Assembly: GCA_903929755.1 (NCBI GenBank)
Contig: CAIYVZ010000151.1
Location: 1 to 64,000 of the forward strand
Direction: 5' to 3'
Source of the DNA: an uncultured Acidobacteriia bacterium
GTDB taxonomy: Bacteria > Acidobacteriota > Terriglobia > Bryobacterales > Bryobacteraceae
DNA: 64,000 nucleotides
Shown here: piece after piece, positions 7,112 through 64,000 of the stretch
How positions within the stretch are numbered: position 1 is the first letter of the stretch
How the letters are laid out: each line of letters starts with the position of its first letter
Position numbers and translations under genes: made by a program
Notes under the pieces: generated by a model
What the model was told of the DNA's origin: nothing
Databases searched by the model: none
Seen by the model: only the letters and a program-made list of their open reading frames with translations

Positions 7112-7142
7112 GGCAGCTTCGCCAGTGCCCAAACGGAGACCA

Positions 7143-48855: not shown

Positions 48856-49665
48856 GCCGCGAGCGGGCATGGCGCGTCCTGCGGCCGGTGGGTGCCAGAA
48901 TGCTGCGCGCAGTAGCGGTGATTCTGGTTCCGGCAGAGGTAGCCCCGCGGCACGATTTCCCCGCCGTCGGTCGCCACCGGCTGAATGGTCGTCGTGTCAT
49001 TCCGGTTGGCGCTTGCCGCCGCCTTCCTGTTGATGTGCGCACGCCCGGGCGATGTTAACGGCGGCTGCAGGGGCTGCTGGTTTTGGGTGGCATCCTGGCG
49101 GTGGACGGAGGCGCTTATATCCCGGATGGCCTGGTAATGCTGGTTCCGACCGCGCTTTTCCTTCGTGCGGCGCTGGACCTGTGCGCGTGCGGTTCGTGTG
49201 TGATGGCTACCCCGTACTCGATCTGCACGAAGACATGCGAGAACTTCTTAGCGCAGGGCGACCGCTGATCCGGGACGGTAGCCTGTATAAAACATGCCGA
49301 AGACGTGGATCGATTCCGCTTTCCGCTGATTGCCGCTGCGGGTTGGGCGAATCAGGAACATCAGCACGCTATTTCGTATTTGAGCGAGGAGAACAGGATG
49401 TGGCGGGAGCACTTCGGACCCCGTCGGCTTCGGTTTCCCGAACCGTCTCTGAATGGCCGTCCCCTCATGTACTGGCGCTCAACGTGACTACCGGTATCCG
49501 CTCGCGGTCCACTGGAACTCCTTCCGACAGCCGAGGCTGAACACACGCCGATATAGGTTTGCTCTCTCCGCCGTCAGGGCTACGAAGGCTACACCGGTGC
49601 CCAGGTTGAAGCCAGTTTTGGTGAGGGAATTGTACGCGAGCGCGGTTGCCCTGCGGCTTGATATC
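48856..49665. other. 810-base stretch without recognised gene
   Basis: Plus-strand frames open here are short or of biased composition. One fragment near 48984-49130 (MVVVSFRLALAAAFLLMCA then a stop soon after) looks like a small lipoprotein-type signal, and the frame at 49083-49268 holds GLVMLVPTALFLRAALDLCA, another membrane-like piece, which may be debris of a lost membrane gene. The start of the PSCyt gene is at 49666; a longer frame from 49453 is not supported. Promoter of the PSCyt operon should be here. Confidence 0.45.
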
Positions 49666-52203
49666 ATGAGCGGAATGGTACCGTTGTCCGCGCGTCCCCT
49701 CTGGCGACCCTTGCTGGGTCTTGTTGCCGCGATTCCCCTGCTGGCGCAGGCCCCGTCTGATCTTTTTGAAAAGGAGATCCGGCCGGTCCTTATTGAGAAG
49801 TGCTATGGCTGCCACTCGTCGAAGCTGAAGTCTCCGATGGGCGGGCTCGTGCTTGACACGAAGGCGGGTCTGAAGCGCGGCGGTAATGGTGGACCCGTGC
49901 TGGTGGCGGGCGATCCGAAGTCGAGCCGGTTGCTGAAGGCTCTGACTTACAACGAGACGGACCTGCGGATGCCGCCGACCGGCAAGCTGGGCGACGACAA
50001 GATTGCTGCTTTTGAACGCTGGATTGCGGCCGGTGCGGTGGACCCGCGTGAGGAAGTCGCTGCCGGGGCGCCGGCGCCTGCGCCGAAGAAGGGCATGGAT
50101 ATTGAGTCGGGCCGGAAGTGGTGGGCGTTCCAGCCGGTGAGTGCGCTGCCGCAGCCGAAGGTTCGCGGGACGGCTTTCGCGAAACAGTGGACGAAGGAAA
50201 AGATCGACTGGTTCATTCTGGCGAAGCTGGAACAGAACAAGCTGAAGCCCTCGCCGGAAGCGGACCGCGTGACGCTGATTCAACGCGCTTCACTGGATTT
50301 GACTGGTCTGCGGCCGACTTATGAGGAAGTACAGGCTTTTGTGGCGGACAAGGATCCGAAGGCTTACGACAAGCTGATTGACCGTCTGTTGGCGTCGCCG
50401 CATTATGGGGAACGCTGGGGCCGTTATTGGCTGGACGTTGCGCGTTATGGGGAGGACAACCCGACTTCGGAAGCGACGAACCCGCCGTATCCGTTTGCGT
50501 GGCGGTATCGCGACTGGGTGATTGAAGCGGTGAATCACGATGTCCCCTACGACAAGTTTGTGAAGATGCAGCTGGCGGCGGACTACATGCCGGATACGCC
50601 GCGTGAAGATCTGCGGGCGCTGGGGTATTTGGGGGCTGGCCCGATTTATCACACGGATTTACGCCTTTCGCGCGATGTGATTGAGACCCTGGTGACGGAT
50701 GGTTGGGATGAACGGGTGGATGCGGTGGGCAGAGGGCTACTGGGCCTGAGTGTGGGCTGCGCACGGTGCCACGATCACAAGTTCGATCCGATTCTGAGCA
50801 AGGATTACTACGCGCTGGCCGGAGTTTTCGCCTCCGTGGTGCAGGCTCCGCGTCCATTGGCGAATGTTGATAAGGACCTGGACAAGCAGTTCATGCTGAC
50901 GACGCAGAAGCTGTTTTTCCTGAGCTATCTGGCGAATCTGCTGAACGGGGAGCCGGGCAGTAAGCCGGAAGAAGCGGCGAAGAAAGTCACGTACTACACA
51001 AAGGAGATGGAGAAGCTTCGGGATTCGATGTTGTTCCTGAAGGAAAGCCATCCGGAGATGTGGACGTATCTGAATGGTCTGGCGCGGGTTCCGGTGGTAA
51101 AACCTCTTATGCCGAAGACGGCGGAAGTAGTGGTGAAGCCTGCGGCGGCTCCGATGCCTCCTCCGGTTCGTCCGGCGAATGCTGCGGCGGCCCGACGTGG
51201 GCGGGGTGGCGCTTCGGAACTGCCTTTCATGCACTCGGTGGTAGACGCCGGGGTTTGGGTGGATGGCAGCGATGCGGATTTGACGGTGCTGGATATGCGG
51301 CTGGATCAGCCGCGCGACATGAACATTCTTCCTCACGCGAATGTGGCGGCTCCGGGGGCGATTGTGAAACGTCAGTTCCTGACCGTGCTTTCCACGGGCG
51401 ATTCAACGTTTACGCACGGGTCGGGCCGGATCGATCTGGCGGACCGGATTTTCTCCGACAGTGGTCCACTGGCGGCCCGCGTGATGGTGAATCGCGTGTG
51501 GGCGTGGCATTTCGGCAAACCACTGGTCTCGACGCCGAGCGATTTCGGCACGCAGGGCGACAAGCCCTCGCATCCGGCACTGCTGGATGATCTGGCGGCG
51601 CGGTTTGTACAGAATGGCTGGTCGCTGAAATGGCTGCATCGGGAGATTATGCTGTCGGCGAGTTATCGTCAGGCAAGCCATCCTCGTGCAGACGGGAATG
51701 CGGCTGACCCGACGAATAAGCTGCTTTGGCGGATGAATCCGCGGCGGCTGGATGTGGAGGCGTATCGGGATAACCTGCTGAATCTGGCGGGGGATCTGGA
51801 TGAAAAGCCCGCGCCGCTTTCGGAAGAACTGGATGCGGCGGAGAACAAGCACCGTACGGTTTATGGCCGCGTTAGTCGCGGGCGCCTGAACACCGTGCTG
51901 CAACTATACGATTTCCCCGATCCGATGATGAGTGCGCCGCAACGCGACCTGACGACGTCGCCGCTGCAGCAGTTGTTCGTGATGAACAGTCCTTTCCTGA
52001 AGGACCGGGCGGACAGTCTGGCGAAGAAGGTGGAATCGGACGCGGATAACAGCGCGAAGGTGCGGGATCTGTACCGGCGGATTCTGGGCCGTGAGCCTAC
52101 GGGCAAAGAACTGGATCTGGCGCTGACTTATCTGAACAAGGGGACCGTCGGCGAGTTTGCGCAGGCGATTCTGGCAACCAACGAAGTTATTTTCTGGCCC
52201 TGA
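49666..52203 (+). CDS. Planctomycete-type cytochrome C / DUF1549 / DUF1553 protein
   Basis: 845 residues with signal peptide (about 1-28). PSCyt1 domain near the start with haem motif CYGCH (46-50) and LRMPPTGKLGDDKIA; DUF1549 (about 188-385: IDWFILAKLEQNKLKPSPEA, LIDRLLASPHYGERWGRYW, a second motif CARCHDHKFDP near 366); and DUF1553 (about 575-835: RVMVNRVWAWHFGKPLVSTP, WLHREIMLSASYRQ). Such proteins, frequent in Planctomycetes, Verrucomicrobia and Solibacteres, are thought to take part in polysaccharide or sulfatase-related breakdown. The DUF1501 gene follows 9 bases on. Start chosen at ATG 49666; ATG 49675 is also possible. Confidence 0.9.
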   Translation: MSGMVPLSARPLWRPLLGLVAAIPLLAQAPSDLFEKEIRPVLIEKCYGCHSSKLKSPMGGLVLDTKAGLKRGGNGGPVLVAGDPKSSRLLKALTYNETDLRMPPTGKLGDDKIAAFERWIAAGAVDPREEVAAGAPAPAPKKGMDIESGRKWWAFQPVSALPQPKVRGTAFAKQWTKEKIDWFILAKLEQNKLKPSPEADRVTLIQRASLDLTGLRPTYEEVQAFVADKDPKAYDKLIDRLLASPHYGERWGRYWLDVARYGEDNPTSEATNPPYPFAWRYRDWVIEAVNHDVPYDKFVKMQLAADYMPDTPREDLRALGYLGAGPIYHTDLRLSRDVIETLVTDGWDERVDAVGRGLLGLSVGCARCHDHKFDPILSKDYYALAGVFASVVQAPRPLANVDKDLDKQFMLTTQKLFFLSYLANLLNGEPGSKPEEAAKKVTYYTKEMEKLRDSMLFLKESHPEMWTYLNGLARVPVVKPLMPKTAEVVVKPAAAPMPPPVRPANAAAARRGRGGASELPFMHSVVDAGVWVDGSDADLTVLDMRLDQPRDMNILPHANVAAPGAIVKRQFLTVLSTGDSTFTHGSGRIDLADRIFSDSGPLAARVMVNRVWAWHFGKPLVSTPSDFGTQGDKPSHPALLDDLAARFVQNGWSLKWLHREIMLSASYRQASHPRADGNAADPTNKLLWRMNPRRLDVEAYRDNLLNLAGDLDEKPAPLSEELDAAENKHRTVYGRVSRGRLNTVLQLYDFPDPMMSAPQRDLTTSPLQQLFVMNSPFLKDRADSLAKKVESDADNSAKVRDLYRRILGREPTGKELDLALTYLNKGTVGEFAQAILATNEVIFWP

Positions 52204-52211
52204 GAATAAAA

Positions 52212-53621
52212 ATGATTACGAAAAAATATTCACGACGTGAGTTGGTTTCGCAGTTGACGGGCGGGCTGGGCGCAGTTGGCCTGGCGGGCATGTTCTCAGA
52301 AGACAGCTGGGCGGCAGCGGCGAAAGCGGGCGCAGGTGCGACGCAGAAGCAGGTACCTCCGCCACAGGTGAAGTTCCCGAACTTTCCTCCAAAAGCTAAA
52401 GCCAACATCGTGCTGTTCATGGTGGGCGGGCCGTCGCAACTGGACATGTTTGACCCGAAACCGGCGTTGCTGAAGTATCAGGGGCAGCGACCTTCGAGCG
52501 TGGATCTGCGAACGGAGCGGACTACGGGCGGATTACTGCCGTCGCCGTTTGAATTTAAGCAGTATGGGCGGGGCGGGGTGCATGTTTCGAGCCTGCTGCC
52601 GAATTTGGCTTCGGTGATCGACGATATCTGCGTGATTAAGTCGATGTACACGTATAACCCGACGCATACGCCGGCGCGCAGCCTGTTCCATACGGGGAAT
52701 ATTGCGGCGACGCGGCCATCGTGGGGTTCGTGGATCTCGTATGGCCTGGGTTCGGAGAACAAGGATCTTCCGGGGTTCGTGATTCTGTCGCCGGGCGGCG
52801 GTGGCGGGGGCTTTGGACGGTCGGGCTTCCTGCCTGCGCGGCACCAGGGGACTTTCTTTGACGACTCCATGGTGGAGCCGGATAAGATGATCCGGTACCT
52901 GCAGAACAAGGATCTGGACAAGGAAAAGCAGCGGACGCAGCTGGATCTGATTCAGGCCCTGAACCAGGAGCACGAACAGTCGTTTGGCCAGGATGAGTAC
53001 CTGGAAGGCCGGATTCAGTCGATGGAGACGGCTTACAGCATGCAGTTCGCGGCGACGGACGCGTTCGATATCCGCAAGGAATCGGAGGCGATGCGGGAAT
53101 CTTATGGCGATACGCCGTTCGCGCATGGTTGTTTGCTGGCGCGGCGGTTGGTGGAGCGCGGGGTGCGGACGGTTCACGTTTATTACGGGCCGGGGCAGCC
53201 GTGGGATGACCACTCGAAGATCAATAAGAATCTGACGGAGCGTTGCCCGGATATGGATAAAGCGTCGGCGCAGCTGATTCGGGATCTGAAGCAGCGTGGG
53301 TTGCTGGATTCGACGATTGTGACGTGGGGCGGGGAATTTGGGCGGACTCCGGTGTCGGAATCGGGCGATGGGCGCGACCATAATCCGTATGGCTTCACCA
53401 TGTGGATGGCGGGTGGCGGCGTGAAGGGCGGAATGGCGTATGGTGAGACGGATGAGTTTGGGTTTAAGTCTGTTGAAAAGGCCGTTTCGATCCACGATTT
53501 GCATGCCACGATGCTGAACCAGATGGGCGTGGACCATAAGCAACTAACTTACCGGTATGCGGGGCGGGATTTCCGGCTGACGGATGTTTACGGCGAGGTA
53601 GTTCGGGATATTCTGACGTAG
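52212..53621 (+). CDS. Tat-exported DUF1501 protein
   Basis: 469 residues. Tat-like start (KYSRRELVSQLTGGLGAVGL) and DUF1501 motifs: VLFMVGGPSQLDMFDPKP, FTHTPARSLFHTGN-like stretch, WGSWISYGLG, GEFGRTPVSESGDGRDHNPYGF and VSIHDLHATMLNQMGVDH. The fold is that of alkaline phosphatase/sulfatase superfamily members. DUF1501 proteins always occur next to DUF1549/DUF1553 proteins and act outside the inner membrane. The substrate is unknown. Unusual codon pattern none. Confidence 0.9.
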   Translation: MITKKYSRRELVSQLTGGLGAVGLAGMFSEDSWAAAAKAGAGATQKQVPPPQVKFPNFPPKAKANIVLFMVGGPSQLDMFDPKPALLKYQGQRPSSVDLRTERTTGGLLPSPFEFKQYGRGGVHVSSLLPNLASVIDDICVIKSMYTYNPTHTPARSLFHTGNIAATRPSWGSWISYGLGSENKDLPGFVILSPGGGGGGFGRSGFLPARHQGTFFDDSMVEPDKMIRYLQNKDLDKEKQRTQLDLIQALNQEHEQSFGQDEYLEGRIQSMETAYSMQFAATDAFDIRKESEAMRESYGDTPFAHGCLLARRLVERGVRTVHVYYGPGQPWDDHSKINKNLTERCPDMDKASAQLIRDLKQRGLLDSTIVTWGGEFGRTPVSESGDGRDHNPYGFTMWMAGGGVKGGMAYGETDEFGFKSVEKAVSIHDLHATMLNQMGVDHKQLTYRYAGRDFRLTDVYGEVVRDILT

Positions 53622-53638: not shown

Positions 53639-54007
53639 TTACAGGCATCCCATCGAGACCGCGACTCTGGAGGCAAGTTCGCAAATCCGCTTGTTGCTCA
53701 GTTGTCTCAGCGGGCCGTTGGGCTCCACCAGAGAGCTCTTCAGCACAACTGTCACATCCTCCGCTCTGGCGGCGCAATCCGCCTGAAGACCAGTTTCGCC
53801 TGCCGGGAGAAACAAGTGAGTCGGAAAGTCCTTGTGAATGCTGGTGGTCAGTGGCACGACGAGGACGGTTGTTGCACGCTCGTGGCGGTTCCTTGCGTTG
53901 ATGGAGACGACGACCACGGGGCGGCGGCCTTTGTCCGGGGGCTCGGTATGCATCCGCACGAACCAGATCTCACCCCGAACAGGATATCGGGTAGCAGAAG
54001 TGGACAC
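53639..54007 (-). CDS. mazF: MazF/PemK-type toxin
   Basis: 122 residues from GTG 54007, one base after the antitoxin stop. RGEIWFVRM and KGRRPVVVVSI then TTVLVVPLTT match MazF/PemK, an mRNA interferase; near the C-terminus LSNKRICELASRVAVSMG gives the usual end helix. A longer in-frame reading to 54079 overlaps the antitoxin and is less likely. The gene is convergent with the DUF1501 gene, 17 bases away. Confidence 0.85.
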   Translation of the reverse strand: MSTSATRYPVRGEIWFVRMHTEPPDKGRRPVVVVSINARNRHERATTVLVVPLTTSIHKDFPTHLFLPAGETGLQADCAARAEDVTVVLKSSLVEPNGPLRQLSNKRICELASRVAVSMGCL

Positions 54008-54008
54008 C

Positions 54009-54317
54009 TCAGGCAGGTTCCTGCGCCAGGAGTTCGCCCAATGAAAATTCACCCCACTGGGATTGGTCCTGAGCTTCATCGGCTGAGAGGCCGGAATAGA
54101 AGCTGGTCACGGTTCGGTCGAGAGCGTCACGCTCCTGCGCGCGCTTGAGGCCCTGGATGATGTCATCGAGTACTGCCGAGACCGACGCCGCTCGCCGCTG
54201 CCGGTGAACGGTTTCCAGAAACAGGATGGACTCTGGTGAAAGAGTGAAACTCCTTCTTGCCTTTCGGGTAGATGGCGGCGCTGGAAGTATCTTACCCATG
54301 ATCGTACTGGCTATCAT
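54009..54317 (-). CDS. Antitoxin of MazF-type toxin
   Basis: About 102 residues (ATG 54317; ATG 54299 is the alternative). RRSFTLSPESILFLETVHRQRRAASVSAVLDDIIQG (in pieces, FTLSPESILFLE and SVSAVLDDII) is a ribbon-helix-helix DNA-binding motif, and the tail ADEAQDQSQWGEFSLGELLAQ is the acidic toxin-binding part. Position one base before mazF supports it. It should autoregulate from the 54318-54528 interval, in which I see no other gene. Confidence 0.75.
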   Translation of the reverse strand: MIASTIMGKILPAPPSTRKARRSFTLSPESILFLETVHRQRRAASVSAVLDDIIQGLKRAQERDALDRTVTSFYSGLSADEAQDQSQWGEFSLGELLAQEPA

Positions 54318-54528
54318 ACCAGCAATGCCGGGGTTGAAAAAGGGTGACCGCGTCGCAGAGTAGTGGCGGGCGTTCAACCGGTCAAATGCCCGGGATCTGA
54401 ACAGGGCAGTGGTTGCTTCCGGTTTTGGACCAGCCGGGTCCCGCGGTGCCCGGCACCACGCCGGGCCGGCCGGTGCCGCGAAAGGACCGCATCGCGCGGG
54501 CAGTAGAGTCAGCCTAGAATAGGACCAT

Positions 54529-55383
54529 ATGGCTACTCGGGCGGGCCGGTTGCAGGGTGACGACCTTGTGGCTGAAGTTCTGCGCAACATGGAAGAGGGA
54601 TTGTTCCGGATTCGCAAGAAGACGGTGGTTCCGGCGATTTACCGCATCTATCTGAACCCGGAGGATCACGGGCAGTTTCGTGATGTGGAGGGGTTTGTGT
54701 GCACCGAGATTCGCGGCGCTTTGGACGAACGGCTGGCGCAGTGGAACGGGTCGAAGCTGCGGCTTGCCCGGGTGCTGCTGGAGAAGTTCGGTGCAGGCGA
54801 TGGGGCGGAGGTTGGGGAATACGTTCGCGTCGCCGACGACTGGACGGTGGAAATCTATCCGGACGTAGACGGCAAACTGGCAGCGGGCGAGATTGAGATC
54901 CACTCGGAACTGGGAGCGCCGCAGAAGCCGGAACTGGGCGGCGGGTCCATGACTCGGCGGATTATTCCGCAAAAAGCGGAAGTCACGATTGCTGCGGCTG
55001 CGGTTGCGGTTGCGCCGTCGGCAGTCGCTGGCGGCGATTTTCCCGAAGACGAGGGAACAAAAGGCCGAGCGTTTGCGCATCTAACCTATGTGGACCAAAC
55101 GGGCCCGAAAGTTTTCGAAGTGACAAAAAATCTGACCGTTATTGGGCGCGGAGGCCGTTCTTACTGGGTAGACGTTCGTTTGGAAACTTTGCCGGATGTC
55201 TCGCGCGAGCACTGCCGTATCCGGCGCGACCCCGAGTCGGGGCGTTTCACGATTGAAGATGTGAGCCAGTTTGGAACCGCAGTGAACGGTACGCCGGTGG
55301 GAAAAGACGCTTCTGCAGAATTGCCTGCTGCGGCCACCATCAGCCTGGCTGATGTAGTGGAGCTGGGATGGCAGACGGCCTGA
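54529..55383 (+). CDS. fhaA: FHA-domain protein with DUF3662-like N-terminus (FhaA-like)
   Basis: 284 residues. N-terminal domain (about 8-130: EVLRNMEEGLFRIRKKTVVP, AIYRIYLNPEDHGQFRDVEG) matches DUF3662 as in FhaA of mycobacteria. A linker rich in Ala/Val follows, and a FHA domain (about 190-284) with GRGGRSYWVDVRL, SREHCRIRRD and SQFGTAVNG, the phosphothreonine-binding pattern. It should bind phosphorylated kinase or cell-wall proteins. First gene of the apparent cell-wall signalling operon. ATG 54529 is preceded by TAGGACC only, a weak ribosome site. Confidence 0.88.
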   Translation: MATRAGRLQGDDLVAEVLRNMEEGLFRIRKKTVVPAIYRIYLNPEDHGQFRDVEGFVCTEIRGALDERLAQWNGSKLRLARVLLEKFGAGDGAEVGEYVRVADDWTVEIYPDVDGKLAAGEIEIHSELGAPQKPELGGGSMTRRIIPQKAEVTIAAAAVAVAPSAVAGGDFPEDEGTKGRAFAHLTYVDQTGPKVFEVTKNLTVIGRGGRSYWVDVRLETLPDVSREHCRIRRDPESGRFTIEDVSQFGTAVNGTPVGKDASAELPAAATISLADVVELGWQTA

Positions 55384-55414
55384 CCGGTTTCAGGCTGTTG
55401 CTGACGCTAAACAA

Positions 55415-55513
55415 GTGAATGATTTACTGAGCGCGCGAACGATTCTGCTACCTCTGATGGTGGTGGTGCTGGCGCTTGTCTCCTGGCTGGCGATTCGCCG
55501 GGAGGGCCAATGA
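55415..55513 (+). CDS. 32-residue single-pass membrane miniprotein
   Basis: GTG 55415 to TGA 55513: VNDLLSARTILLPLMVVVLA then LVSWLAIRREGQ. One hydrophobic helix (about 8-26) is flanked by positive residues on both ends (Arg8; Arg28-Arg29). The stop TGA overlaps the start ATG of the next gene (ATGATG at 55510), and the frame sits in an otherwise empty 126-base gap between genes of one operon. The overlap and TM character support it. No homologue is known to me; it could help tether or regulate the phosphatase or kinase. Too short to rule out chance. Confidence 0.5.
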   Translation: MNDLLSARTILLPLMVVVLALVSWLAIRREGQ

Positions 55514-57114
55514 TGTCGGTTCGTACGCAACTGAAGTCGGCCGCGGCCAGCGATATGGGCCGGCGGCGAACAAACAATGAAGACCGCTATCTGCATGATG
55601 CGGAGCACGGGATCTATGCGGTGGTGGATGGCGTGGGCGGGCATGCGGCGGGCGAACACGCGGCAGAAACTGCGGTGGAAGTTCTGCGGGAGCGCCTGAC
55701 GCGGCAAACCGGGACGCCGGAAGAGCGTCTTCGCGAGGCCATAGCTCTGGCCAACAACGAAATTTTGCGGCTTGGACAGGCTAACCCGGATTGGGCGGGA
55801 ATGGCGTGTGTTCTGACGGTGGCGGTGGTGGAAGACGACATCGTCACGGTGGGGCACGTGGGAGATTCGCGGCTGTATCTGGCGCGACCGGGTGAGATCC
55901 GCAAAGTAACCCAGGATCACTCGCCAGTGGGCGAGAGGGAAGATCGCGGCGAAATCAATGAAATGGCGGCGATGCGGCACCCCCGGCGGAATGAGATTTA
56001 CCGGGATTTGGGGAGCCGCGAGCGTTCACCGGATGAACCCGGGTTTATCGATATTGAAAGATTCCCGCTCCCGGTGGATGGCGCGCTTTTGCTGTGTTCG
56101 GACGGCCTGAGCGATCTGGTGACGAGCCAGGAAATTCTGACCACGCTGGAGCGTTCGGCGCAGGACCCGGAAGCGGCTGTGCTGGCGCTGATTGACGCGG
56201 CGAATCTGGCGGGAGGGAAAGACAACATCACGGTGCTGGTGGTGGCATCGCCGGGATTCCGGCCGAAGATTGCCGGGGCTCCGGTAGCTTCAGCCTCCCC
56301 GTTGGTGGGGAAATCGTTGATCCGGGCTTCGATATTTCCGGTGCTGGGGCTGTTGTTCGGAGCTGCGGCCGGGGCGGGCGGGATGTACTGGTTCTTCCAG
56401 GGCTCGCCGGAGGGGCAGAAAACGCTGACAGTGGTTAGCGCGATTGGGCCCGTGCTTTTGCAGGCGCATTCGGGAGATACGGTGCTGATTCCGGCGGGGC
56501 GCTACCGCGAGCGGCTGGAGATGAAGGCGGGCGTTACGATCCGGGCGTTGGAGGCGGGGACGGTGACGCTGACCTCGCCCGATGGTGGTCCGGTGATTGT
56601 GGCGCGCGGCATCGTCAACGGGACCGTTGAGGGTGTTTGGATCCAGGGGAGTCTGGAGAGCCCGGTGAATCCGGCGGTGCTGGTGGATTCCGGGAGTCCG
56701 GCGCTGACGCAGGTGCGGATAACGGGTGCGGGCACGGGGATTGAGATTCGCGGGGACGCGGCGCCTTCCATTCGGGATTCGCGGATCACGAATAATCTGG
56801 GGCCTGGGATTGATGTGGGCGCAACGTCGCGTCCGGTGATTTCGGGGAACCTGATTGCGGCGAACGGGGCGGGCACCCCGGGGAGCCTGCGGCCGGGCGT
56901 GGAAGTGCGGGATCAGGGCCAGCCGGTGCTGAAAGACAACGGGATTATCGATAACGCGGCGGAAGCGATTTGGATCCATTCGCGGACTTATCATGCGCCG
57001 AGTTATGAAGAGAATTTCTTTGGCGGGCTGAGTCCGAAGAAGGCGATTCGGTTGCTGGAGCTCCCGCAGTCGGCTCCGGCGGAGAAGAAAACCAGGAGTG
57101 GGAGGCAGGGATGA
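55510..57114 (+). CDS. pstP: PP2C phosphatase fused to TM and right-handed beta-helix
   Basis: 534 residues. PP2C domain (about 1-245) has all metal motifs: ASDMGRRRTNNEDRYL, VVDGVGGHAAGEHAA, HVGDSRLYLARPG, LLLCSDGLSDLV and GGKDNITVLVV. A TM (about 275-297) follows. The C-terminal 235 residues read GDTVLIPAGRYRERLEMKAGVTI, NAPVLVDSGSPALTQVRITGAG-like and RPVISGNLIAANG, right-handed parallel beta-helix (PbH1/NosD-type) with about eight coils. The phosphatase would face the cytoplasm and the helix the periplasm. PstP of Actinobacteria instead has a plain tail. ATG 55510; its TGA overlaps the kinase ATG (57111). Confidence 0.9.
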   Translation: MMSVRTQLKSAAASDMGRRRTNNEDRYLHDAEHGIYAVVDGVGGHAAGEHAAETAVEVLRERLTRQTGTPEERLREAIALANNEILRLGQANPDWAGMACVLTVAVVEDDIVTVGHVGDSRLYLARPGEIRKVTQDHSPVGEREDRGEINEMAAMRHPRRNEIYRDLGSRERSPDEPGFIDIERFPLPVDGALLLCSDGLSDLVTSQEILTTLERSAQDPEAAVLALIDAANLAGGKDNITVLVVASPGFRPKIAGAPVASASPLVGKSLIRASIFPVLGLLFGAAAGAGGMYWFFQGSPEGQKTLTVVSAIGPVLLQAHSGDTVLIPAGRYRERLEMKAGVTIRALEAGTVTLTSPDGGPVIVARGIVNGTVEGVWIQGSLESPVNPAVLVDSGSPALTQVRITGAGTGIEIRGDAAPSIRDSRITNNLGPGIDVGATSRPVISGNLIAANGAGTPGSLRPGVEVRDQGQPVLKDNGIIDNAAEAIWIHSRTYHAPSYEENFFGGLSPKKAIRLLELPQSAPAEKKTRSGRQG

Positions 57115-59003
57115 CCGCACTGGACCCCAGAGTGTTCGGTCGCTACGAAATCCGGCGCAAGCTGGCGGGTGGCGGTATGGGGCGGGTGTATCTGGCCTAT
57201 GACGCGACGCTGAACCGTGAGGTTGGGCTGAAGCTGATTGACCTGGGGACGGATGCGGAGAGCCTGGAGATTATTGCCGCTGAACAGCGCGGGGCGAAAC
57301 TGCAGGACCAGTTGGCGCAGCGGGAGCCGGGCGGGCGCGTGGCGCAGATCTTCGATGTGGGCGAGCGCGACGGGTTCTTTTTCATCGCCATGGAGTACAT
57401 TGAGGGCGAGGATCTTTCGGAATCAGTGGCACGGGGGCCGATAGAACCTGCGCGCGCGGTGTCGATTGCGCTGGATATTCTGGAAGTTCTCACCAGGGCA
57501 CATACTTTCAGTGCGGTGATTGATGACCGTCAGCATCGTGGCATTATCCATGGCGACATTAAGCCGCGAAATATACGAATCACGCCGCAGGGGAGCGTGA
57601 AGGTTCTGGATTTTGGCATCGCGAAGGCAGTTTCCATGACGCGGAGCATGACGTTTAACCAGTTCGGTTCGGTACCGTATTCGTCGCCGGAGCGGCTGCA
57701 GACGGGCGACATGGATGTGCGGTCGGACGTGTGGTCGGTGGGCGTGGTGCTGTTCGAGATGCTGGCCGGAAGGTCGTATTTTCAGGCGGAATCGGCACAG
57801 AAGATGGAGTGGGTGATCCGCAACTACTCGGCGGTTCAGCCAGCGATGTGGGGGATGCCTGCCGGGTTGCGGGAAGTGCTGATGCGGGCGCTGCATCCGG
57901 AGCCGCAAAGCCGGTTTGCGACGGCAGCGGAGATGCAGGGTGCGCTGGGGGAATGGCGAGCGAGCGGGAGGTATTCGAGTCCGCAGCCAACGGATTTTGA
58001 GGCTACGCGGCGGACGACGGCTTCGGTTATTTCGGATGATGGGGAAACCCGGCGGAGGGCTGCTCCTGCGGTTGACGATGCTACCCGGCGGACGAACCTG
58101 TCGGAGCCCCCGCTTCCTCCGGGGCGAGAGCCGGGGGTAGCTTCGATTACCTCGGCGGGCGGTTTTCGGCTGAATGGCATGGTGGCCGGAGCGGTGGTAT
58201 TTGTGCTGGCGGCGGGCTTTGCGGTGGCGGAAATCCGGCAATGGAGTAAGGCGAGCGACCTGCGGCGGAGGCTTGAAGCCGGCCAGTTGTCCGCCGACGC
58301 AGGGGCTGTCGAGTACAAGACGCTGGCTGCGGGCTCCTGGTTTTCGTGGCCGTTGTATCCGGCGCGGACGAGTCTGCGGGACCGGTATTCGGCGGAAGCG
58401 GATCGGGTGATTGCGGATTATCGGGAGGCCAGCGAGAGTACGCCGGTCTACGTGAAGGACTGGAAACGTGCCCAGGCCGCCATTTCGGCAGCGGCGAATC
58501 TGGCCCCGGAGGACGCGGCGATTCGTGGTCGCGCGAACCTGATTGAGGGTCACTTGAAGCTTCGCGCCGGGGATATAAAAGGTGCGCGGTCCAGCTTCGA
58601 AGCAGCGCGCGAGAGGATGTCCAGGTCGCCGGACCCCCATCTTGGCCTGGCGATGATCCACCTGCACGATAGTGATCTGGACAAGGCGGAGGGGGAGCTG
58701 AACGAAGCGCAGCGCAATGGTTTCCGGCCCGGGCGTCGCGAGCAGAAATCTCTGGCCGATGCTTACCGGAAGCGCGGGGAGCGTTGGCTTGCGGTTGCGA
58801 AGAAAGCGCACGATATTGGGCGCATGGAAGACGCGCTGAAGAAGGCGGACGGGGATCTGGCGCATGCGCAGAGTCTGTATAACGCCGTTGCGCCGTTTTT
58901 CGATGGTATTGAGCTTTCGGAACGAGTTGCGAGCGAGCGCGAGCAGGCGCAGAAGACTCTCTCGGCCGCGCAACTGGCGCAGCAGGCTGCGGGGAATCCT
59001 TAA
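57111..59003 (+). CDS. Transmembrane Ser/Thr protein kinase (PknB-like)
   Basis: 630 residues. Kinase domain (about 11-275) with GGGMGRVYLAY, Lys41 in VGLKLID, HGDIKPRN (Asp149), DFGIAKA (Asp167) and a SPER site; the HRD motif is HGD. After a Pro/Thr-rich linker comes a TM (about 353-375). The periplasmic tail to 630 has TPR-like helical repeats (IRGRANLIEGHLKLRAGDIKG, DPHLGLAMIHLHDSDLDKAEG), not PASTA domains. It should phosphorylate FHA partners and perhaps the SEDS-PBP fusion. It is co-transcribed with the phosphatase (ATGA overlap). Confidence 0.92.
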   Translation: MTALDPRVFGRYEIRRKLAGGGMGRVYLAYDATLNREVGLKLIDLGTDAESLEIIAAEQRGAKLQDQLAQREPGGRVAQIFDVGERDGFFFIAMEYIEGEDLSESVARGPIEPARAVSIALDILEVLTRAHTFSAVIDDRQHRGIIHGDIKPRNIRITPQGSVKVLDFGIAKAVSMTRSMTFNQFGSVPYSSPERLQTGDMDVRSDVWSVGVVLFEMLAGRSYFQAESAQKMEWVIRNYSAVQPAMWGMPAGLREVLMRALHPEPQSRFATAAEMQGALGEWRASGRYSSPQPTDFEATRRTTASVISDDGETRRRAAPAVDDATRRTNLSEPPLPPGREPGVASITSAGGFRLNGMVAGAVVFVLAAGFAVAEIRQWSKASDLRRRLEAGQLSADAGAVEYKTLAAGSWFSWPLYPARTSLRDRYSAEADRVIADYREASESTPVYVKDWKRAQAAISAAANLAPEDAAIRGRANLIEGHLKLRAGDIKGARSSFEAARERMSRSPDPHLGLAMIHLHDSDLDKAEGELNEAQRNGFRPGRREQKSLADAYRKRGERWLAVAKKAHDIGRMEDALKKADGDLAHAQSLYNAVAPFFDGIELSERVASEREQAQKTLSAAQLAQQAAGNP

Positions 59004-59055
59004 TCAGAACATTTCGGGCCAGCGGTGCGTTTACCGATAAGATGAGGGGACCCCA

Positions 59056-62000
59056 ATGGCTGTAACCCGCAGTACTGCCGAGAGCCGTGGCAGCATCCCG
59101 CGCAGCGGTGGTGGTGCGAAGCCGTTACGGGTGGGGCGCGCCCCGGAACTGGTGTGGCTGCTGGTGGTGGCGATGCTGGTTAGCTGCGCATGGTGGATGG
59201 TTTATACCGCTCGGGTGCGTCGGGATGCCGGGCCGGTGCAGCCGGTGAATTTGGCGGAAGCCCGAACGGCGTCCAGTCTGGAACCCGCGCTGACGGTGCT
59301 GCGGAGTCCGGCGGACCGCGCTTTTGCGGCGAAGCAGATTCTGGATTTGGTGCAGGTACATGAAGGGCATTTGCCGAACACGGGGGCGATTGCCCGATTG
59401 CGTGTGAATCGGGCGGTGGTGGCGGCAAATCGCAGTCTGGAGCAGTTGCGGACGCGGGCAGGTGAAGGCGCGGGGGACACGATGGCGCTGTTCACGCCGG
59501 CCGAGTTCGCATTAGTGAAGCAGGCGGTGGAGGTGCGGCCGATGTCCGAATTCCGCGGCGAGTTTTTGAAGTGGGCGGGCATCGTGCTGGGGGCATTTTT
59601 GCTAACGCATCTGGTGTGGAGTCTGCGCGGATTCGGGGGGCACTGGGTTTTTTTGCCCTTGCTGCTCCTGCTGACCGGGATTGGTTTCACGCTGATGCTC
59701 GCGCTGCGGGATCCGGTGCGGGATCTGATGATCTTTGTACCTTATGCGCAGGGGGTGGCCGCGGGCTGTCTGGTGATGTTGGCGGCGAGCTTTGTGAATT
59801 GGGAGTCGGCCACGGCGGGCTTTAGCTTCGTGCCGCTGGTGGGGGCTGCGGTGCTGTCGGTGGCGCTGATGCTGTTCGGTACGGCTCCGGGTGCGAGCGA
59901 TGCGAGGGTGAATCTGGGGCCCGTGCAGCCGGCTGAGGCCATCAAGATTCTGCTGGTGTTCTTTCTTGCCGGGTACTTCGCGAAACGCTGGCCCTTACTG
60001 CGGCAGTTGAAGGAGAAACGGGTCCTGCTGCCCGGCGTAGAACTGCCCAGGCTGGAGTATGCGGCTCCAGTGGTGGTGGGCGTGCTGGTTTCGCTGCTTT
60101 TCTTCTATCTTCAGAAAGATTTGGGGCCCGCACTGGTTTTCGCGGCGGTATTCCTGACCATGTATGGCATCGCCCGAAACCGCGCCGCACTGGCCGCTTT
60201 GGGGATGGGGGCGCTGTTCTGCGGGTTTCTCGTCGGGTATTTTCTGGGTGTACCACATACGGTGCATGACCGTGTGGCCATGTGGATCTCGCCGTGGGGC
60301 AACTCGGTGCGCGGCGGCGACCAGGTGGTGCATTCGCTTTGGGCGCTTGGTTCGGGCGGGCTAGTGGGCACCGGACTGGGGCTGGGGGAGCCGGATGTGA
60401 TCCCGGCCGGTCACACGGATCTGATTGTCTCGGTACTGGGCGAAGAGTGGGGTTTTCTGGGCATCGTGCTGGTTTATGGGGCACTGGCGCTGCTGGTTTG
60501 GCTGTCGCTCAGGATTGCGCGGCGGGCTCGCACGGACTACACGTTCTTTCTGGCGCTGGGGTTGACGTTACTGCTGGCGGCGGAAGTTCTGCTGATTTCG
60601 GCGGGGATTCTGGGTTTGTTCCCGCTGTCGGGCGTGGTGACGCCGTTCCTGAGCTTTGGCCGGACTGCGATGCTGGCGAATTTCTTCATTGCCGGGGTGC
60701 TGCTGGCGATTGGGAATGTGCGCGAAGGGGAGCAACGGACGGTGGCGTTTCATGGCGGGCTCCGCTGGGTTGAGTTTGGTCTGGCGGCTGCGCTGCTGCT
60801 GGTGGTGGGGCGTGCGGGGTGGGTGCAGATTGCCCAGGCCGACGCTTTTGCTGGAAAAGGCGCGCTTGTTCTGCAAGCTGACGGGGGGCGGCGGTTCGTG
60901 TACAATCCGCGCCTGATTGCCGCGGCCCGAACGCTGCAGCGGGGGAGTATTTACGACCGGACTGGTCTGCCGCTGGCCACCAGCGCCTGGGATGAACTGG
61001 AAAAGCATCGGCGAGAATACGCGGGGCTGGGCATCGATATCGACAAGACCTGCAATCGCGCGGACAGCCGCCATTACCCGCTGGGCGGGCTGACGTTTCA
61101 TATTCTGGGGGATCTGCGGACGCGTGCAAATTGGGGGGCTCCGAATAGTTCTCTGATCGAGCGTGATCACGCGAAGCGGTTGCAGGGATATGACGACCGG
61201 GCGCGGATTATGGAAGTGACGGATGCGGCGGGGAAGCCTCAGCTTTCCGTGCAGTATGACTATCGGGAACTACTGCCTCTGCTGCGGCGGCGCTGGCAAC
61301 CGGAGCATCCGGCGGTAAAGGCGCTGATGGACCGGGAGCGGAATGTACATCTCTCGATTCATGCTGGATTACAGGTGAGCGCGGGGCAGATTCTGAAGAC
61401 GCGCCTGGCGGAACAGGGATTGACGAAAGGTTCCATGGTGGCGATGGACCCGGAGACGGGTGACTTACTGGCGTCAGTCAACTGGCCTTCTCCGGAAGCG
61501 AATGAAGAACGCCTGGCGGTGGGTGAAGCGGCTGGGCCGATGCTGGACAGGGCACGGTACGGGCTGTATCCGCCGGGGTCCACGTTCAAGATTGTGACGG
61601 CGATTGCGGCGTTGCGGGCGGACCCTGCGCTGGCCAGTCAACACTTCGATTGCGTACGCTTGCCGGATGGCCGCACGGGGAATTTTATTGGCAATTCGAA
61701 GCGCCCGATCCGGGATGACGCGGAGGATAAAACGCCGCACGGTTCACTCGACATGCACCGGGCGATTGTGGTTTCCTGCAATGCTTACTTCGCGCAGTTG
61801 GGCGCGCTGAAAGTGGGGGCAGCGGCACTGCTGGAAACTTCGAAGCTGCTGGGGATTTCGGTGGCGAATCCGATGACGGTGGCGAATCTGAAACCGCAGT
61901 TGCCGCAGATTTCCTATGGCCAGGGGCAGGTGGTGGTGACGCCGTTCCAGATGGCTCGGGTGGCGGCGGCGGTGGCGGGCGGCGGGAGGCTGCCGATGGG

Positions 62001-62358
62001 CCGGTGGGTTCTGGATGAGAACAATGCGCGCAATGCCGCGCCGGTGGTTCTGCTGGACGCGAAGCTGGCGGCGGCACTGGGGCGCGATATGCGTGGCGTG
62101 GTGACGAGCGGGACCGGGAAGAAGCTGGCCGGGATTGATCCGCCCATCGCCGGCAAAACGGGCACGGCCGAACTGGCCAATGCTCCTTCACACGGCTGGT
62201 TTATTGGCTTTGCTCCTTATGCGGAGGCCGCACCCGTTGGCACGAAACGAATTGCCTTCGCAGTTCTGGCCGAAAACGGGCATTATGGTGGTACGTCGGC
62301 GGCTCCCCTGGCGGGGGATCTGGTGGCGGCAGCGAAACAACTGAAACTAATCCAATGA
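59056..62358 (+). CDS. SEDS (RodA/FtsW) glycosyltransferase fused to class B PBP transpeptidase
   Basis: 1100 residues. An N-terminal TM (about 33-52), an extracytoplasmic region (about 53-170) and nine or so further TMs (about 172-565) form the SEDS part, with VQPAEAIKILL, QKDLGPALVF, SGGLVGTGLG, HTDLIVSVLGEEWG (His453-Thr-Asp455) and PFLSFGRTAML. After one more TM (about 580) comes the transpeptidase with GSTFK (Ser842, Lys845), SCN (907-909) and KTGTAE (1034 on), all intact. In most bacteria these are separate interacting proteins (RodA-PBP2, FtsW-FtsI). This single chain should both polymerise and cross-link peptidoglycan. 52 bases separate it from the kinase gene. Confidence 0.93.
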   Translation: MAVTRSTAESRGSIPRSGGGAKPLRVGRAPELVWLLVVAMLVSCAWWMVYTARVRRDAGPVQPVNLAEARTASSLEPALTVLRSPADRAFAAKQILDLVQVHEGHLPNTGAIARLRVNRAVVAANRSLEQLRTRAGEGAGDTMALFTPAEFALVKQAVEVRPMSEFRGEFLKWAGIVLGAFLLTHLVWSLRGFGGHWVFLPLLLLLTGIGFTLMLALRDPVRDLMIFVPYAQGVAAGCLVMLAASFVNWESATAGFSFVPLVGAAVLSVALMLFGTAPGASDARVNLGPVQPAEAIKILLVFFLAGYFAKRWPLLRQLKEKRVLLPGVELPRLEYAAPVVVGVLVSLLFFYLQKDLGPALVFAAVFLTMYGIARNRAALAALGMGALFCGFLVGYFLGVPHTVHDRVAMWISPWGNSVRGGDQVVHSLWALGSGGLVGTGLGLGEPDVIPAGHTDLIVSVLGEEWGFLGIVLVYGALALLVWLSLRIARRARTDYTFFLALGLTLLLAAEVLLISAGILGLFPLSGVVTPFLSFGRTAMLANFFIAGVLLAIGNVREGEQRTVAFHGGLRWVEFGLAAALLLVVGRAGWVQIAQADAFAGKGALVLQADGGRRFVYNPRLIAAARTLQRGSIYDRTGLPLATSAWDELEKHRREYAGLGIDIDKTCNRADSRHYPLGGLTFHILGDLRTRANWGAPNSSLIERDHAKRLQGYDDRARIMEVTDAAGKPQLSVQYDYRELLPLLRRRWQPEHPAVKALMDRERNVHLSIHAGLQVSAGQILKTRLAEQGLTKGSMVAMDPETGDLLASVNWPSPEANEERLAVGEAAGPMLDRARYGLYPPGSTFKIVTAIAALRADPALASQHFDCVRLPDGRTGNFIGNSKRPIRDDAEDKTPHGSLDMHRAIVVSCNAYFAQLGALKVGAAALLETSKLLGISVANPMTVANLKPQLPQISYGQGQVVVTPFQMARVAAAVAGGGRLPMGRWVLDENNARNAAPVVLLDAKLAAALGRDMRGVVTSGTGKKLAGIDPPIAGKTGTAELANAPSHGWFIGFAPYAEAAPVGTKRIAFAVLAENGHYGGTSAAPLAGDLVAAAKQLKLIQ

Positions 62359-63134
62359 GCATCTTGAAAAAGCTGGAGAAGGTCCTGGACGACCGTTTGC
62401 GCGGCATTTTTGCGTCGCAGCAGGAGGGCGGGCGTGAGGCGATTGAACTATACCGTGACGCGCTGAATCAGGTTGCGGCGCGGGCTACGGTGGGGTCACG
62501 CGGGGACCGGGTGTTGCCGTTCAATCGTATCCGGATTGAGTTGCACGCCGATTCCGACGAGCGCCGGGCGGTGCTGGAGGCTCTTTTTGAACCCATACAG
62601 ATGCGGGAAGATATTCGCGCGGGGTTGCTGGAAGAACGGATCTCTACGCCGGAGCAACTGATTCTGCAAGTTGAGTATCCGGCGGATGCGGCTGTTGAGA
62701 TGCGGTTGCTTTTTGAGAAGGGCGGGGCAGCGCCGAAGCTGGAACCTGCGCCTATGGCACCGCTGCGGCTTGCGGTACTGGAGGGCGTGGCGGCTGGTGG
62801 GGATCTGCTGTTGCAAGGCAATGTGGTGAACGTGGGGCGCAGTAAAGACGTTATCGACACGATGGGGCGCATTGTGCGGCGCAACCAGCTTTGTTTCCCC
62901 GAGGATCTGAATCCGGAGCTGAATTCTACGGTCTCTCGCGCTCATGCGACGCTGCGGTGCAATCCGACCGAGGGGGAGTGGCGCGTGTTTGACGATGGCA
63001 GTTCCATGGGGACTGCGGTGTTTCGCGACGGCGTGCGGATCGAAGTTCCGGCGCATGCCAGTCGGGGTGTGGGGTTACGCGCGGGCGATGAACTTTACTT
63101 CGGGTCGGTTCGCGTCCGAGTGGAGACTACTTAG
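62355..63134 (+). CDS. Second FHA-domain protein with DUF3662-like N-terminus
   Basis: 259 residues; ATG overlaps the stop of the SEDS-PBP gene (ATGA). The N-terminal domain (about 1-115: ILKKLEKVLDDRLRGIF, VLPFNRIRIELHADSDE) is a distant form of the FhaA N-terminus, and a FHA domain at about 155-259 has VNVGRSKDVIDT, STVSRAHATL and DDGSSMGTAVFRDGV. It is the last gene of the run and lies next to the convergent LOG gene (63131). Likely reader of Thr phosphorylation on the wall synthase or kinase. Confidence 0.87.
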   Translation: MSILKKLEKVLDDRLRGIFASQQEGGREAIELYRDALNQVAARATVGSRGDRVLPFNRIRIELHADSDERRAVLEALFEPIQMREDIRAGLLEERISTPEQLILQVEYPADAAVEMRLLFEKGGAAPKLEPAPMAPLRLAVLEGVAAGGDLLLQGNVVNVGRSKDVIDTMGRIVRRNQLCFPEDLNPELNSTVSRAHATLRCNPTEGEWRVFDDGSSMGTAVFRDGVRIEVPAHASRGVGLRAGDELYFGSVRVRVETT

Positions 63135-63715
63135 GTCTCGCGTGCGGTGATCCACTTGTCTTCTGGCGGCGCTGCGTATTGCAACATGCGTTGGATCAGC
63201 GATCCCGGGTCCGTGTCAGCGATAACGAAGTCACGGTGGACGGGCTTGACGAAGCGCTCGGCTACGGCGTGATCGAACAATGACAGCAGGGAATCGTAGT
63301 AACCTTCCACGTTTAGCAGCCCGAAGGGTTTCGTCACCAGGCCGAGTTGTTTCCAGGTGAGGATTTCGCAGAATTCCTCGAAGGTGCCGTAGCCTCCAGG
63401 CATGGCGATAAAGCCATCGGCGAGTTCGGCCATTTGGGCTTTGCGTTGGTGCATGGACCCGACTACGCGAAGGCTGGAGAGACCGTGATGCGCGACTTCC
63501 TTTTCGACCAGGGCGTGCGGGATCACGCCGATGACTTCGCCTCCGGCGGCGAGCGCGGCGTCGGCAAGGGCACCCATGAGACCGGTTCGGCCTCCGCCGT
63601 AGACGATGGAAATTCCGTTGGCGACCAGGGCTTGTGCCATGGCCTGCGCATTTGCGATGTAGGCGGGTTTGCTGCCGGGGCTGGAACCGCAAAAGACGCA
63701 GAAGCGCTTAGCCAT
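63131..63715 (-). CDS. LOG-family (cytokinin-activating-type) phosphoribohydrolase-like protein
   Basis: 194 residues from ATG 63715. MAKRFCVFCGSSPGSKPAY, GGGRTGLMGALADAAL, then MHQRKAQMAELADGFIAMPG and GGYGTFEEFCEILTW form the TIGR00730 pattern (PGGxGTxxE). The family hydrolyses nucleotide 5'-monophosphates; bacterial members are often named Rossmann fold nucleotide-binding proteins. It overlaps the upstream glycerol dehydrogenase gene by eight bases, so the two are probably co-transcribed. DprA in this window shares the same Rossmann type. Confidence 0.92.
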   Translation of the reverse strand: MAKRFCVFCGSSPGSKPAYIANAQAMAQALVANGISIVYGGGRTGLMGALADAALAAGGEVIGVIPHALVEKEVAHHGLSSLRVVGSMHQRKAQMAELADGFIAMPGGYGTFEEFCEILTWKQLGLVTKPFGLLNVEGYYDSLLSLFDHAVAERFVKPVHRDFVIADTDPGSLIQRMLQYAAPPEDKWITARET

Positions 63716-64000
63716 TATTACGTTCCCAAAGCATGCCCGCGTCATTTGCGGCGCGCATCGCTTGTTCCACCAGTTGCGGCGTGACGGGGAAGGGCTCGTT
63801 GTGCATAGTTTCACCCGGCGCGGTGGCTCGTTCGGCGATTCTGCGGAGAGTGTCAGCATCCGGGGTGGCACCCAGGCCGACACCGGCGAAGGTTACGGGC
63901 AAGCCGACGCTTTTCGAGAATGCGAGGACTTCTTCCACGATGGTGCGAGGCTGATCTTCCAGCATGAGCTGGGTGATGACACCAAATGCAACCTTCTCGC
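63708..64000 (-). CDS. gldA: Glycerol dehydrogenase, C-terminal part (partial)
   Basis: The last 96 residues are in the window; the gene starts beyond the right edge. EKVAFGVITQLMLED, AFSKSVGLPVTFAGVGLG and ETMHNEPFPVTPQLVEQAM are very like the C-terminus of iron-containing glycerol dehydrogenases such as GldA (KVAFGTLTQL, ETIHNMP, TPDQV). The enzyme oxidises glycerol to dihydroxyacetone with NAD. The length to the stop is normal. The upstream part could not be seen. Confidence 0.85.
   Translation of the reverse strand, partial: EKVAFGVITQLMLEDQPRTIVEEVLAFSKSVGLPVTFAGVGLGATPDADTLRRIAERATAPGETMHNEPFPVTPQLVEQAMRAANDAGMLWERNNG

Follow-up and report, generated by a model that had tools for sequence, protein, structure and literature searches.

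Introduction

Pairs of a SEDS glycosyltransferase and a class B penicillin-binding protein (PBP) are the core synthases of the bacterial cell wall, and how signals activate them is an open question. In Actinobacteria the genes for one such pair lie in the cluster fhaA-fhaB-pstP-rodA-pbpA-pknA-pknB. Here we describe a locus in which both partners are encoded as a single polypeptide within an operon for a Ser/Thr kinase, a PP2C phosphatase and two FHA proteins. It occupies positions 54,529 to 63,134 of a 64,000-nucleotide stretch (hereafter the window; contig CAIYVZ010000151.1, positions 1 to 64,000) from an uncultured Acidobacteriia bacterium. This kinase-linked, single-chain, third SEDS–transpeptidase is real and conserved, and we think it probable that its operon supplies an optional third synthase for peptidoglycan under phosphorylation control, with a small membrane protein and an inserted domain as activators or sensors.

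The joining of the two activities has precedents. Synthetic fusions of Escherichia coli RodA to PBP2 are described as active in two papers (PMC6207328, PMC10449877), and the D262A substitution blocks polymerisation in the engineered fusion (PMC6207328). In E. coli FtsW, the residues H295, T296 and D297 of ECL4 have been mutated, D297 being the putative catalytic residue (PMC8765783). Natural SEDS–PBP fusions are mentioned in the available part of one paper, which cites the Rhodococcus RHA1 genome paper (PMC10449877), and are not mentioned in the available part of another (PMC8262863). A natural fusion is thus already in print. For a kinase-linked fusion operon in Acidobacteriota or Bacteroidota, no description was found in the open-licence literature (titles and the starts of abstracts; most subscription journals lie outside it).

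The fusion protein

The fusion gene lies in a single open frame of 1105 codons that no stop interrupts. The first-pass annotation, made from the letters of the window alone, had claimed a SEDS glycosyltransferase and a transpeptidase in one chain and had named an overlooked stop or frameshift between residues of about 565 and 620 as one possible flaw; there is no such stop, and Pfam finds PF01098 at residues 232–553 (160.5 bits, cut-off 26.4) and PF00905 at residues 792–1089 (118.3 bits, cut-off 22.1). No further Pfam domain, GT51 included, is seen at E 0.01. The features of the protein are as follows (TM, transmembrane):

59056..62358, +: SEDS glycosyltransferase–class B transpeptidase, single chain, 1100 amino acids
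59056..59076, +: N-terminal motif MAVTRST, cytoplasmic, a candidate phospho-site or docking peptide
59215..59559, +: inserted domain, residues 54–168, presumably periplasmic, within an extra N-terminal two-TM hairpin
60412..60420, +: SEDS catalytic loop HTD (residues 453–455), D455 being the equivalent of FtsW D297 by motif
60736..60831, +: short joint and transpeptidase TM helix, approximately residues 561–592 (helix 563–593 in the predicted model)
61579..61590, +: transpeptidase SxxK motif, S842TFK, with S907CN and K1034TG further on

Acidobacterial fusions fall into class 1, to which that of the window belongs, and a divergent class 2. Homologous single frames are found at 25 further class-1 loci (26 with the window), and chance or an assembly slip can be dismissed for this reason. 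The suggestion that two genes were joined by a sequencing or assembly error is refuted, as is a frameshift or missed stop. Nothing was found in its favour and we give it practically no credence: besides the shared single frame, the joint has a similar length in the 11 loci measured, those fetched last, where the two domain matches are 184–208 residues apart. The 26 loci represent 25 genomes or contigs, one genome (G480) contributing two; excluded from them are G258, in which the fusion is split between two contigs (L016 and L049), the partial loci L058 and L061, and G552 (contig end). All catalytic motifs are present in 26/26 class-1 and 2/2 class-2 fusions, the SEDS TD being found in all 28 acidobacterial fusions examined.

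Residues 13–352 of T. thermophilus RodA (6bar) align with residues 197–552 of the fusion, so the SEDS core begins near residue 195. Ahead of it, hydropathy indicates two extra hydrophobic segments (around residues 32–50 and 170–188) separated by a loop of approximately 120 residues, an extension missing from the genome's own RodA and FtsW. All nine unfused relatives checked, actinobacterial and clostridial, also have two extra N-terminal segments, with a loop of 4–20 residues. At the hydropathy threshold used, both segments are detected in 6 of 11 class-1 fusions, with loops of 93–129 residues, and only the first in the other five. The best solved match to the transpeptidase is M. tuberculosis PbpA (3un7), and a fold search with the full-length model returned penicillin-binding proteins exclusively among the best 50 of 640 matches. 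With this arrangement the C-terminus of the SEDS half and the N-terminus of the transpeptidase half would both be cytoplasmic, as a working fusion requires.

The operon

The operon runs in the order FhaA-like, TM miniprotein, PP2C phosphatase, Ser/Thr kinase, SEDS–transpeptidase fusion, second FHA protein. All the genes lie on the + strand exactly where the first-pass annotation had placed them, and the three four-base overlaps that it had reported are present (55510–55513, 57111–57114 and 62355–62358). The partners of the fusion are:

54529..55383, +: FhaA-like protein, with a sub-threshold FhaA_N-like region and, at the C-terminus, an FHA domain that has GR and SREH motifs
55415..55513, +: TM miniprotein, 32 amino acids, GTG start, single hydrophobic segment; overlaps the PP2C start codon at its own stop
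55510..57114, +: PP2C phosphatase, with a predicted TM segment (approximately residues 265–296) and a C-terminal right-handed beta-helix, presumably periplasmic (hydropathy, Pfam)
57111..59003, +: Ser/Thr kinase, with a kinase domain (residues 12–270), a predicted TM segment (357–375) and a presumably periplasmic TPR-like region
62355..63134, +: second FHA protein, with a conserved insert ahead of its SRAH motif

In Pfam, the FhaA-like protein scores 47.6 bits for FHA and 24.3 bits for FhaA_N, slightly below the 25-bit cut-off; the phosphatase scores 63.3 bits for PF00481 and 43.1 bits for PF13229; and the kinase scores 112.8 bits for PF00069, with TPR_16 and TPR_19 under their cut-offs. The phosphatase has the motifs DGVGG, GDSR, SDG and DN, the kinase has HGDIKPRN and DFG, and both FHA domains carry GR and SRxH; these are the motifs expected of intact members of the three families. 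The second FHA protein and its orthologues share a conserved segment within the FHA domain, after the GR motif and before SRAH.

Distribution and conservation

A survey of the phylum found the fusion in at least 12 of 396 genomes, own genome included, ten carrying class 1 (in G258 as two contig pieces) and two the divergent class 2; the count is a lower bound because two candidates per genome were scored. Within the class, 12/250 genomes carry it (again own genome included), and within the genus 4/7. A scan of a genome collection that extends outside the phylum covered the best 80 of 588 relatives, and among the matches listed are an uncultured Acidobacteriia bacterium (71% identity across the part searched), Thermoanaerobaculum sp. 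and Candidatus Sulfopaludibacter sp.; these names point to Acidobacteriota as the phylum of the host.

The order of the five large genes (FhaA-like, PP2C, kinase, fusion, FHA) is kept in 21 of the 26 class-1 loci, among which are loci from a held-out set of 11 (L134–L144) fetched after the pattern had been noted. Four of the remaining loci are cut by contig ends (L039, L042, L136 and L140) and in L046 the members are rearranged. L039 starts 303 bases ahead of the PP2C open reading frame (ORF), a stretch without a recognisable piece of FhaA. The genome that contributes two loci (G480; L138 and L143) has two whole copies of the operon with clearly different fusions.

A similar operon is also found in another phylum. 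A tblastn search of plasmids with the window fusion matched eight records, one of them across both domains: the Spirosoma oryzicola (Bacteroidota) plasmid NZ_CP089545.1, which alone was matched when the search was repeated with the Spirosoma fusion. Its annotation lists an FHA protein, a PP2C, two kinases, a fusion of 1323 residues and a second FHA protein. By BLAST, identity to the window proteins is 33% for the PP2C, 29–30% for the kinases, 29% for the fusion and 27% for the second FHA protein (E 4e-5), which has no Pfam match at E 0.001. The first FHA protein has no BLAST match to the window at E 1e-3 and is recognised from its annotation and a Pfam FHA score of 22.2 bits (cut-off 20.7). 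A hydrophobic ORF of 27 residues lies between the FHA and PP2C genes. By eye, the Spirosoma fusion has HTD, STAK and KTG motifs, with SSN replacing SCN, and its inserted loop of approximately 245 residues gives a sub-threshold match to CarboxypepD_reg (23.5 bits, cut-off 32.3). A search of viral contigs with the Spirosoma protein matched nothing.

Miniprotein, inserted domain and N-terminal motif

A hydrophobic mini-ORF (29–45 residues from the nearest start) lies between the FhaA and PP2C genes in 13 of 14 loci, window included, where the search regions were set by hand around each gap. It is present too in 8 of 10 testable held-out loci, with regions taken from BLAST ends (L136 could not be assessed). 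Across 446,968 strand-bases there are 31 ORFs of this kind, a background figure that counts the miniproteins too. A set stretch upstream of the synthase was searched in each of the two class-2 loci (L047 and L048) and of four actinobacterial loci, and yielded none.

The inserted domain is modelled with confidence by AF2 (predicted local distance difference test, pLDDT, of 90.4 for residues 28–192). It has no Pfam match down to E 1, and a fold search against the PDB gave 17 matches with a best E of 3.8. Three of these are DNA glycosylases of the helix-hairpin-helix kind, which we regard as noise. In 25 genomes searched the domain is confined to the fusion frames, being found in 18 of 18 class-1 carriers and in none of the seven other genomes (two class-2 carriers and five non-carriers).

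At the N-terminus, the sequence T[RK]S[TW] occurs near the presumed start of 17 of the 26 class-1 proteins, or 20 if TRSR, TRSS and TRTW of three others are counted; start codons are uncertain in L042–L045, L055, L056 and L059. The motif is not universal, and this is what might be said for a looser arrangement, in which the kinase, PP2C and FHA genes share a promoter with the fusion without any regulatory link and the kinase has other targets. We consider this unlikely, however, as the five genes are found side by side in 21 of the 26 class-1 loci and in another phylum, and PP2C adjoins both class-2 fusions as well as the unfused actinobacterial relatives in four of four loci examined. Control of the synthase by phosphorylation remains the reading that we prefer.

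Other wall synthases in the same genomes

The fusion unites the domains for both activities, with all their motifs, in a single chain, and the first-pass annotation had proposed that it constitutes the whole peptidoglycan synthase of the organism. This fails. The genome of the window has three SEDS matches and five transpeptidase-domain matches. One SEDS protein passes the RodA equivalog cut-off and adjoins a PBP2 that passes its own; another sits in the order mraY, one ORF, SEDS, murG, murC, with an FtsI-like gene farther upstream. This second SEDS protein, the genome's FtsW, scores best as ftsW, at 308.2 against a cut-off of 337.5, and so falls below it. The fusion lies under all three NCBIfam equivalog cut-offs (ftsW 162.7 against 337.5, rodA 139.8 against 336.7, pbp2 153.3 against 455); on these scores and the SEDS trees, the idea that it is a renamed RodA or FtsW was dropped. 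The first-pass annotation had added that separate rodA and pbpA copies taking the main role elsewhere would count against it; the copies are indeed there, which bears out that part of the statement and not the whole.

Counts of SEDS matches agree with an additional synthase. At least three are found in 21/21 carriers, window's genome included, and exactly two in 13/13 non-carriers, the latter a subset of the non-carriers surveyed. In a first set of 13 genomes, 11 carriers have three or more (G188 and G258 being broken over contigs) and two non-carriers have two each; in a second set of 20, nine carriers have three (G480 has four, two of them fusions) and 11 non-carriers have two. G051 has one additional unfused SEDS. 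The carriers counted besides the window's genome all have SEDS matches outside the fusion, two of them with canonical scores except in G188, where one is in pieces. The fusion is an extra synthase, carried by the smaller part of the related genomes that were searched. That it should be the only peptidoglycan synthase of its host is refuted, and that it should be the main one is very improbable, given the separate RodA–PBP2 and FtsW with FtsI-like gene in the same genome, the SEDS proteins outside the fusion in other carriers and the relatives of the same genus that do without it.

A narrower form of our preferred explanation is a specialised developmental or stress synthase, switched on by the kinase and active only under certain conditions, for example in stationary phase or when the envelope is damaged; SpoVE–SpoVD, which acts in sporulation, is a model for such an enzyme. 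The optional, patchy distribution in addition to canonical SEDS genes, the outer domains of kinase and phosphatase and the plasmid carriage in Spirosoma all speak for it. For developmental genes, the analysis covered the window's neighbouring genes. We regard it as a real possibility that falls somewhat short of an even chance, and return below to the broader reading of an optional, phospho-controlled third synthase.

Phylogeny

In trees built from hand-chosen rows with fragments excluded, the SEDS domains of class-1 and class-2 fusions lie on one side of a 100/99 branch, also when Spirosoma is added, and so do the transpeptidase domains in a tree of their own. Another 100/99 branch parts the organism's own RodA and FtsW, with other canonical SEDS proteins, from the actinobacterial, clostridial and fused proteins together. 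By these SEDS trees the fusion groups with RodA–PbpA-type proteins of Actinobacteria and Clostridia and not with its own RodA or FtsW. Within that group the fusions form a clade of their own beside the actinobacterial and clostridial rows (89/89, or 81/67 with Spirosoma); as the trees are unrooted, the fusions may, but need not, derive from the actinobacterial type. Spirosoma falls within the fusion clade (100/99), beside class 1 at weaker support (89/71), and class 1 as a separate clade then has little support (47/11). In the transpeptidase tree, from which three proteobacterial and two acidobacterial rows are missing, neighbours are poorly resolved: because the actinobacterial rows do not form one group and the organism's own FtsI is on a long branch, this tree alone does not tie the fusion to the actinobacterial type.

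Clostridial fusions are also among the matches listed in the scan of the genome collection (L080, 8624–11305; L130, 8210–10969; and the partial L094). Both the SEDS and the transpeptidase trees place L080 and L130 amid clostridial proteins that are not fused, which points to separate fusion events. Nothing in these two loci matches the window PP2C or kinase at E 1e-3, and the genes ahead of their fusions are, as we would name them from sequence, ZapA-like and U32-peptidase-like.

Flanking genes

Directly upstream of the operon, on the opposite strand, is a PemK/MazF-like toxin gene (53639–54079, −; PF02452, 58.6 bits). The start of this gene is overlapped by an ORF (54009–54617, −) without a Pfam match at E 1e-5 that may encode an antitoxin. 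Farther upstream (49453–53621, +) are a gene with PSCyt1, PSCyt2 and PSD1 domains and then a DUF1501 gene. At the other end, a LOG-type gene (63131–63883, −; Pfam Lysine_decarbox, LDcluster4) converges on the operon with a four-base overlap with the last FHA gene. Elsewhere in the window, two large proteins encoded near each other (1950–5942 and 7125–10952, +; 1330 and 1275 amino acids) share TSP3, LVIVD and Big_7 repeats.

A proposed mechanism

Control by Thr phosphorylation is suggested by the gene neighbourhood, the intact kinase, phosphatase and FHA motifs and the recurrent N-terminal Thr. In the scheme that we propose, the SEDS half would polymerise lipid II through D455 and the transpeptidase half would cross-link the product through S842, the short cytoplasmic joint fixing a 1:1 complex. 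Thr phosphorylation, most plausibly of the N-terminal tail MAVTRST, would be adjusted by the kinase and PP2C, both of which have a predicted TM segment and a domain on the outer side. The two FHA proteins would read the phosphorylation state and switch the synthase, position it or bring partners to it, and the TM miniprotein and the inserted domain might act as activators or sensors. Catalysis by the fusion, its topology beyond hydropathy and the roles of miniprotein and insert are all deduced from sequence.

Several points weigh against this proposal. The N-terminal Thr motif is absent from 6 of the 26 class-1 proteins (L042–L045 and L059, which start MRII or MRV, and L054), was not found in class 2 and is not seen in the Spirosoma fusion. 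The miniprotein is missing in L046, L137 and L141. The beta-helix of the phosphatase was not found in three (L056, L057 and L044) of the five class-1 PP2Cs scanned besides that of the window. The window kinase has no PASTA family in the Pfam scan, so PknB-like sensing is unsupported and a PASTA-type kinase was dropped as a reading; against the PASTA kinase model it scores 222.7 bits (cut-off 450), matching positions 6–353 of 563. The full-length predicted model of the fusion is of moderate quality (mean pLDDT 67.4, predicted template modelling score 0.51).

The fusion occurs patchily beside canonical SEDS genes and its operon has a plasmid-borne relative in a second phylum, which suggests that genomes can acquire wall synthases as accessory modules. 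Tentatively, the operon could be seen as a transferable, self-contained wall-growth module, in which the single chain comes with its own membrane kinase, phosphatase, FHA readers, TM miniprotein and outer sensor domain. Such a module would pass from genome to genome and across phyla, plasmids included, and give its host a phospho-gated third synthase, although we lean slightly away from this view. A natural single chain that shares an operon with the kinase, phosphatase and FHA readers presumed to serve it would fix the stoichiometry and make regulation testable in one purified system, and the TM miniprotein and inserted domain are new candidate synthase regulators.

Comparison with known systems

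RodA–PBP2 and FtsW–FtsI have the same domains and catalytic motifs as the fusion but are separate proteins. The engineered E. coli RodA–PBP2 places SEDS first and transpeptidase second, like the window, with a man-made linker and without kinase operon, insert or miniprotein. The natural fusions mentioned in PMC10449877 likewise encode the two activities in a single ORF, and the mention gives neither an operon nor a family nor a function. The clostridial fusions L080 and L130 differ from the window operon in gene context.

The closest likeness is to the actinobacterial rodA-pbpA-pstP-pknAB cluster, which the first-pass annotation had pointed out and which the SEDS trees support. FHA, PP2C, Ser/Thr kinase, SEDS and class B PBP genes stand together in both, and in the actinobacterial loci L082 and L111 the PP2C, SEDS, PBP and kinase genes lie side by side. 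Actinobacterial-type relatives share the two extra N-terminal hydrophobic segments, and PbpA is the best solved transpeptidase match. The window differs in that SEDS and PBP are one chain, the kinase is without a PASTA match, the N-terminal hairpin holds an inserted domain, there is a TM miniprotein and the whole set is additional to a canonical RodA and FtsW.

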